Shown piece by piece: positions 33,084-34,685 of a DNA stretch of 64,000 nucleotides. Location: positions 558,001-622,000 of the forward strand of contig NZ_QYUO01000001.1 in assembly GCF_003591035.1 (NCBI RefSeq). Direction: 5' to 3'. Every line of letters starts with the position of its first letter. Position 1 is the stretch's first letter. The position numbers and the translations under genes were made by a program. This DNA is from Noviherbaspirillum saxi (lineage in GTDB: Bacteria > Pseudomonadota > Gammaproteobacteria > Burkholderiales > Burkholderiaceae_D). The notes beneath the pieces were generated by a model. That model was given only the letters and a program-made list of their open reading frames with translations, had not been told where the DNA came from and made no database searches.

Positions 33084-33111
33084 TTGTGATTTTTTTCCAG
33101 ACGCGTAAAAT
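33084..33111 (+). promoter_or_regulatory. Candidate sigma-70 promoter of metK
   Basis: TTGTGA (33084-33089), 16 bases, TAAAAT (33106-33111). Transcription would begin near 33118, right before the first stem of the metK leader. Confidence 0.5.
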
Positions 33112-33117
33112 ATCATA

Positions 33118-33300
33118 CGATGCAATCCAAATTGGACGCGAATCGGATGATTTGGGACGAACAGGATTGCATGAATCATGCGTTCCCGCCGAGTTAATAG
33201 ACAACTTGCGAGGCGGTTTACAAATTTCGCTAAAGCGTCGCAGGCTCATTGGGTTGGCCGCGACAAGGTCCTCACCAACTATCCTTACAGGGAGCCTGCG

Positions 33301-33301
<1 letters not shown>
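33118..33301 (+). promoter_or_regulatory. Structured metK leader, candidate riboswitch or attenuator
   Basis: This 180-base leader shows three notable pairings. (1) ATGCAATCC (33120-33128) with GGATTGCAT (33164-33172), 9 bp perfect, near the predicted 5' end. (2) TCGCAGGCTC (33238-33247) with GAGCCTGCGA (33292-33301), 10 bp perfect; the 3' arm contains part of the GGAG ribosome site and the A of the metK ATG. (3) CTTGCGA (33205-33211) with TCGCAGG (33238-33244), 7 bp with one G-U. Pairings 2 and 3 use the same bases and exclude one another, which is the layout of a translational switch. I could not match it to a SAM riboswitch that I know. Confidence 0.5.
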
Positions 33302-34464
<1,163 letters not shown>

Positions 34465-34568: not shown

Positions 34569-34575
34569 CCCGCAT

Positions 34576-34646
34576 TCCAAGGAGCGTTGCAGCATGGTGT
34601 TTTCGACACCGTGTCAGGCTTGGATATCTTTATCGCAACGGCGCTC
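34576..34646 (+). ncRNA. SAH riboswitch (S-adenosylhomocysteine)
   Basis: The pairing is that of the ahcY-associated SAH aptamer. P1: GAGCG (34582-34586) with CGCTC (34642-34646), and TTGC (34587-34590) with GCAA (34635-34638), with the usual internal bulge. P2: ATGGTGT (34594-34600) with ACACCGT (34606-34612). Pseudoknot: TCCAAG (34576-34581) with CTTGGA (34619-34624). It sits 40 bases upstream of the ahcY ATG. Known members switch on the hydrolase gene when SAH builds up. Confidence 0.93.
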
Positions 34647-34685
34647 ACGTTACTTTTTTCTATCTTTTCAGGAAAGGAGGGCGTG

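Follow-up and report, generated by a model that had tools for sequence, protein, structure and literature searches.

Comparative sequence analysis makes it highly likely that the leader of metK in a 64,000-nucleotide stretch of Noviherbaspirillum saxi DNA, here called the window, is a divergent riboswitch sub-type of the SAM-II superfamily, which we term 'type II' and which would act on translation. Its conserved core, at positions 33186-33239, is an H-type pseudoknot of the SAM-II/SAM-V type, and comparison among leaders shows the helices P1 and P2, a conserved pocket and the presence of the strands of two further helices, P3 and P4, whose coordinates are collected in Table 1. A preliminary description of this DNA had proposed that the metK leader is a SAM-type riboswitch acting on translation, with a stem that hides the Shine-Dalgarno sequence, and for Burkholderiales the comparison supports this. 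The metK leader region holds two promoter-like sites against 0.3 expected, the sequence GCGTAAAATA or near variants of it precede the aptamer in many other metK leaders as judged by eye, and a pattern search of this window found no terminator-like site ahead of metK. Downstream of metK, ahead of a frame that appears ahcY-like by eye, lies an SAH riboswitch (34573-34653, 57.1 bits), which is the sole Rfam match at the gathering threshold across the whole window. It shares the window with the metK leader but belongs to a different Rfam family (RF01057) with a different ligand, and we found no link between the two.

Table 1. Coordinates of metK and of the observed and predicted elements of its leader in the window
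Feature	Position	Strand	Segments	Remark
Promoter-like site	33084..33111	+	TTGTGA 33084-33089, 16-nt spacer, TAAAAT 33106-33111	transcription start expected at about 33118
Upstream hairpin	33120..33172	+	33120-33128 with 33164-33172	this leader only
P1	33186..33216	+	CCGCC 33186-33190 with GGCGG 33212-33216	changes on both sides in 4 of 6 P1 pairs, counting one outer pair
L1 third strand	33191..33197	+	GAGUUAA	GUU in 63 of 63, partly by construction
P2a (pseudoknot)	33200..33239	+	GAC 33200-33202 with GUC 33237-33239	
P2b	33206..33233	+	UUGCGA 33206-33211 with UCGC 33227-33230 and AA 33232-33233, bulged U33231	99.7% of cells paired
A-rich pseudoknot linker	33217..33226	+		in other genomes, longer by up to about 115 nt
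P3, competing hairpin	33237..33264	+	GUCGC-A-GGCU 33237-33246 with GGCC-GCGAC 33256-33264	
P4, anti-Shine-Dalgarno helix	33240..33299	+	GCAGGCUC 33240-33247 with GAGCCUGC 33292-33299	10 bp here, 33238-33301
Shine-Dalgarno	33290..33294	+	GGGAG	
metK, methionine adenosyltransferase	33301..34464	+		TIGR01034, 606.6 bits against a cut-off of 309.4

The metK loci used for comparison were gathered by protein search, in which the closest relatives with a name belong to Oxalobacteraceae; some of the loci are the same genome fetched twice, and 101 of the leaders are distinct. A pattern search located the motif ahead of metK in 104 of the 110 related loci, and a covariance model added one divergent, partial copy (locus L085, 27.3 bits). 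The sequence upstream is too short in two loci (L072 and L095); among the 108 with enough, 104 fit the pattern, and in three (L036, L050 and L100) both the pattern and the covariance model failed to find the motif ahead of metK. Written out, the core is CCGCC/TCGCC - GAGUUA - n - GA(A)C-(A/U)AC-UUGC - RR - GGCGG/GGCGA - linker - (C/U)GCUAAAGCGU(U)CGC. An early form of the pattern was anchored on a later GCCAAAGC in L038, L075, L081, L084 and L098, and subsequent analyses were anchored on GCTAAAGCG. Our main alignment, A1, comprises 63 distinct short-linker aptamers of the 90 distinct plus-strand ones, leaving out 27 longer-linker aptamers and 12 loci with metK on the minus strand. Its rows were selected by a pattern that contained GTTA and GC(T/C)AAAGCGT, so that invariance at these two places is partly by construction, and that did not include P1, UUGCRR, the YY or the 5' side of P2a. 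R1, a covariance model built on metK leaders, had matches in 185 of the 250 genomes searched in the order at E 0.01, with none in the other 65; at E 0.001 the figures were 110 of 274 for the class and 30 of 299 for the phylum. All of these counts mix type II with the type I copies described below. Among the matches listed, compared by eye, at least 53 of the order's 250 genomes have one directly ahead of metK.

Within the 63 aptamers, 95.0% of the 1006 cells of P1, P2a and P2b are paired, compared with 85.7% after shuffling and 35-43% when slid. Double changes occur in 8 of the 16 pairs, giving 141 double-change cells against 46.6 in shuffles (none of 500 as high), while the number of further pair types is not above that of the shuffles (429 of 500 as high). 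On a FastTree metK tree the pseudoknot pair 31-52 changed 11 times, seven of these being double changes, and never became a mismatch, and double changes also took place at pairs 21-63 (three, with no break), 32-51 (two) and 5-37 (three). Frequent makes or breaks were seen on the same tree for pairs 4-38 (ten), 20-64 (seven) and 9-33 (four), and pair 20-64 is unpaired in 28 of the 63 aptamers; columns 21-63 of P2a hold G-C in 32, A-U in 28 and G-U in three, with none unpaired. Compensatory changes in homologous leaders were thus looked for and found: as judged from the aligned leaders, the P1 stem and the P2 pseudoknot covary, supporting both helices.

Compared with Rfam up to E = 10, the metK leader of the window scored with a single family, SAM_alpha (SAM-II, RF00521), at 13.1 bits where the threshold is 36, and no family matched it at threshold. 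Among 20 other metK leaders the same search returned three matches, all to SAM_alpha at 14.7-20.9 bits, and nothing for the remaining 17, so that SAM_alpha is the sole scoring family in the 21 leaders (4 of 21) and its gathering threshold of 36 bits was passed by none of the 20. Likewise, 20 whole metK loci, 18 with the motif and two (L050 and L100) lacking it, gave no leader match at the Rfam gathering threshold, and SAM-V, whose Rfam number we take to be RF01826, gave no match up to E = 10 in the 21 leaders. In this genome, R1 detected two strong sites, one at metK (79.6 bits) and one 107 kb upstream of it, ahead of metX (39.3 bits), the next scoring 17.2; the metX copy carries GAUUUGA, the third strand of SAM-II, followed by a hairpin with a T-run. 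Built on metK leaders, R1 picks up type I copies at about 25-48 bits, and the relatives that it finds precede metX and metZ-, metH- and metF-like genes (the last three named by eye). SAM_alpha was matched by 18 of 20 metX/metZ-like, tandem or unassigned loci at 22.6-42.1 bits, three of the 20 reaching 36 or more. The metX relative in the same genome and the tandems of type I, terminator and type II found elsewhere tie the metK leader to SAM-II, and we conclude from these sequence relationships that metK leaders are homologous to undoubted SAM-II members through intermediates. The earlier suggestion that this RNA is unlike SAM-II and SAM-V is not borne out: no Rfam family other than SAM_alpha scores up to E = 10, the metX gene of the same genome is preceded by a clear relative of SAM-II, and the pseudoknot and nearly the whole pocket are those of SAM-II/SAM-V.

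The SAM-V pocket is called virtually identical to that of SAM-II in the portion of PMC6061858 drawn on here, where the adenine of SAM is paired by U47 and its aminoacyl end by A50, the triple U20:A48.U9 faces the sulfonium, and U8 makes no SAM contact and only hydrogen-bonds U47; the ligand contacts are stated there to be common to SAM-V and metX SAM-II. By our own alignment to the SAM-V numbering, the equivalents of U47, A50, U20:A48.U9 and U8 in the window are U33231, A33234, U33207:A33232.U33194 and G33193; G33193 takes the place of SAM-II U10 and SAM-V U8, and U33194-U33195 correspond to the U of the sulfonium triple and the U of the next triple. Except for the U8 equivalent, the nucleotides that make contacts in SAM-V/SAM-II are present in 63 of 63 aptamers, as is the UUGC/GC-U-AAA core with the unpaired U predicted to bind adenine, of which the GC(T/C)AAAGCGT half was selected by the pattern and UUGC was not. 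The U-U of the third strand is also kept in nearly all copies found by the covariance model; the UUU of the SAM-II third strand (GAUUU) is absent in the window, which has GAGUU instead. GAGUUA occurs in 94 and GGGUUA in 2 of 96 distinct leaders, the selecting pattern having required the G. Among copies found by the covariance model, with unparsed or split matches set aside, the U8 place is G in 30 and U in 6 metK aptamers, and G in 1 and U in 35 metX/metZ-like ones (Fisher p 6e-13, uncorrected for relatedness), where the metK count of U may be low because R1 was built on G copies, biasing the metK sample to G. The interchange of G and U at this place ahead of the same gene argues that the ligand is likely unchanged.

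Two copies stand together in 31 loci, which correspond to 30 distinct places (L122 is the same as L228) and include some near-identical or same genomes; L176 and L243, not being true tandems, were left out. A copy with the type I strand (AGCUU) comes first and one with the type II strand (CAACUU) second in 26 of the 31, the exceptions being L245 and L246 with two type I strands and L227, L247 and L259 with other letters. By a plain count, all 31 loci have a run of at least four T and a predicted hairpin between the copies. The plan, terminator first and translation second, is that of the SAM-II/SAM-V tandems, and according to the portion of a 2022 review that we used (PMC9481103), SAM-II also occurs doubled in 44 leaders, of which some have a mixed plan. 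Both kinds of tandem treated there share with ours a distal copy with a terminator and a proximal copy acting on ribosome access; that portion names neither metK nor the G variant for its tandems, and the single type II metK copies are not tandem. Some tandem aptamers lie ahead of a small protein of about 95-130 aa that starts with MYDC (L146-L152, L136, L139, L195, L198, L203, L204 and L212), for which no Pfam match was found in three tested proteins and no NCBIfam match in one; in several of these loci a MATE-like transporter frame, named by eye, follows. One gammaproteobacterial genome (G583; L238 and L244-L246) has ten R1 matches, forming five tandem pairs before genes of unclear type.

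Downstream of the core, P3 pairs more strongly than its shuffled versions do on average in all 43 distinct leaders of the Oxalobacteraceae type and in all 58 others, and on the respective alignments 94.2% and 92.7% of its cells are paired, with modest covariation. In this genome P3 uses the bases of P2a and most of the anti-Shine-Dalgarno strand, and on the aligned sequences the competitors common to both leader groups are the pseudoknot P2 and the downstream hairpin P3. P4, which hides the Shine-Dalgarno sequence, is the 10-bp stem of the preliminary description, in which TCGCAGGCTC at 33238-33247 and GAGCCTGCGA at 33292-33301 are exact reverse complements. Conservation of this stem extends to its inner 8 bp, all of which pair in 28 of the 43 Oxalobacteraceae-type leaders and at least six of which pair in 42, but not to the outer two pairs that reach the A of ATG, which are present in 27 and 14 of the 43. 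Cognate anti-Shine-Dalgarno pairing is above the mean of non-cognate pairing in 30 of 43 Oxalobacteraceae-type and 43 of 58 other leaders, and the anti-Shine-Dalgarno stretch pairs best among the leader positions tested in both groups; in 37 of 101 leaders, however, it does not stand out from shuffled controls (fraction above 0.1), and P4 shows weak covariation among Oxalobacteraceae, with 3 double-change cells, a number that 28 of 500 shuffles equal or exceed. Nearest-neighbour energies for this genome, with the pseudoknot omitted and no ligand, are -44.8 kcal/mol for closed P4 and -35.7 kcal/mol for P1 with P3; since P4 is favoured energetically over P3 even without ligand, switching would need kinetic control.

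Two other stems had been described in this leader. The 7-bp pairing of CTTGCGA (33205-33211) with TCGCAGG is present, one of its pairs being T-G, and is complete in 41 of the 43 Oxalobacteraceae-type leaders, but only 2-5 of the 7 pairs form in the 58 others, and it was rejected as a general switch because it holds only in Oxalobacteraceae. The 9-bp stem, too, is real in that ATGCAATCC (33120-33128) pairs perfectly with GGATTGCAT (33164-33172), and an unconstrained fold of 33118-33330 includes both it and the 10-bp stem; it was rejected as a part of the sensor because its two 9-mers occur together in 1 of 101 distinct leaders, namely this one, a count of these 9-mers and not of other hairpins there. 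The pairing that is kept in both leader groups is that of UUGCRR (33206-33211) with YYGC-U-AA (33227-33233), a pseudoknot absent from the earlier account.

We infer that the ligand is SAM, and likewise the direction of switching and its kinetic control. P1 and the pseudoknot helix P2 would make the SAM pocket, in which U33231 would engage the adenine, U33207-A33232 with U33194 the sulfonium, and A33234 the aminoacyl end. With SAM bound, P2 would be stabilised and P2a would hold 33237-33239, so that hairpin P3 would be blocked, 33240-33247 would be free to pair with the Shine-Dalgarno region in P4, and metK translation would be off. At low SAM, P3 would capture 33237-33246 during transcription, which would hide the anti-Shine-Dalgarno strand and allow metK to be translated, the net outcome being negative feedback on SAM synthesis.

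It is unlikely that type II forms its own riboswitch class, descended from SAM-II, with the G of the third strand adjusting the affinity or altering which ligand is bound. If this were true, the tandems of type I, terminator and type II would work as gates with two steps or two inputs, and a sensor left unannotated by Rfam would govern SAM synthesis in much of Burkholderiales. Less likely still is a SAM-II-derived aptamer in which G33193 directs binding to another ligand of the SAM cycle, such as SAH, decarboxylated SAM or methylthioadenosine, with the type I/type II tandems acting as two-input gates. The separation of metK (30:6) from metX/metZ-like copies (1:35) by G or U at the U8 place would fit such a ligand, as would the 26 of 31 tandem loci that combine the two types and not two alike; however, in SAM-V the nucleotide at this place does not contact SAM but props U47, the sulfonium triple is kept, and U is found there in some metK leaders and in some tandem proximal copies.

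That the structured leader is conserved for being read by a protein, through MetK autoregulation or another RNA-binding protein, with no ligand sensing, we consider very improbable. Conserved RNA structures can serve proteins, and a proposal that MetK binds RNA is noted in the portion of PMC9373788 drawn on here, but the conservation sits on the nucleotides that contact SAM in SAM-II and SAM-V, and the related aptamers precede metX and the metZ-, metH- and metF-like genes mentioned above. Hardly any weight goes to an N-terminal extension or leader peptide of metK as the source of the conservation: an ATG at 33178 is in frame with metK, and the list of open reading frames includes a 428-aa frame from it, yet the stretch from GAGUUA to GCUAAA differs by single bases among leaders (inserts of 3, 4, 5, 6, 7 and more), and the double changes keep pairs, not codons. 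We rejected this explanation on the frame-breaking length changes.

Read as a SAM-II-superfamily riboswitch, the metK leader shares with SAM-II P1 and the H-type pseudoknot P2, the third strand, the bulged U, the UUGC/GCUAAA core and the association with methionine/SAM genes. It differs in that most of the metK copies have G where SAM-II conserves U10 of the third strand; in that P2b is two pairs longer than in the SAM-II consensus derived by our own alignment and P2a has only 3-4 bp; in the long linkers of some copies and a score below the Rfam threshold; and in that it seems to switch via a separate anti-Shine-Dalgarno helix and a competing hairpin. With SAM-V it shares the pocket and, as proposed here, the translational mode, and in tandems SAM-V follows a terminator-bearing SAM-II copy. 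According to the portion of PMC6061858 drawn on here, P2a of SAM-V includes part of the Shine-Dalgarno sequence, whereas the metK Shine-Dalgarno sequence starts about 50 nt after P2a and neither lies in it nor adjoins it (33290-33294, P2a ending at 33239), the distance from GCUAAAG to the start being 61-102 nt in the 101 distinct leaders.

Among earlier findings, a metXZ element of betaproteobacteria was described as a pseudoknot before metX/metZ followed by a terminator (Leyn et al. 2014, PMC4239095); the part of that paper considered here places it at metX/metZ only and does not relate it to SAM-II. By gene, lineage, pseudoknot and terminator, the element would fit our type I copies (such as L145 ahead of metX). 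The same part reports that this survey of about 200 proteobacterial genomes failed to find a regulator of metK in betaproteobacteria, and suggests that the interactions are not conserved or that the genes are constitutive. SAM-II was listed for Bordetella and Coxiella in 2005, as stated in the portion of PMC1273637 that we used. In the available parts of the open-licence PMC literature, covering the 104-RNA, 26-genome and 50-genome discovery papers, a Burkholderia start-site paper and SAM-II/riboswitch papers, we found no metK-linked SAM-II in betaproteobacteria; an earlier notice is possible in subscription papers, supplements or a 2017 survey. The Burkholderia sRNA family Bp2_287 (RF02424) matches the antisense of the type I leader below threshold (L145:798-934, minus strand, and L150, L151 and L152), and what is catalogued as this sRNA may represent the wrong strand of a riboswitch. 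At L153 a SAM-I/IV aptamer (329-433, 61.1 bits) lies about 370 nt ahead of a SAM-II-like copy (803-862). Copies with the type II strand CAACUU precede AAA-ATPase-like frames, named by eye and with no known SAM link, at L127, L130, L131, L233 and L235, and three genomes from a single gammaproteobacterial family (L252-L254, f210) have long-linker R1 matches ahead of an unknown short ORF.

The Rfam SAM-II model thus misses a sizeable sub-type, which offers a natural G-for-U variant at one pocket position, useful for probing SAM recognition, and a SAM-II relative that seems to act on a distant Shine-Dalgarno sequence through a competing hairpin. Judged from these comparisons, many betaproteobacteria very probably use the metK leader as a switch to lower SAM synthesis when SAM is plentiful, and such a widespread SAM-II-like leader would close the gap in metK control in betaproteobacteria by a direct negative-feedback loop.
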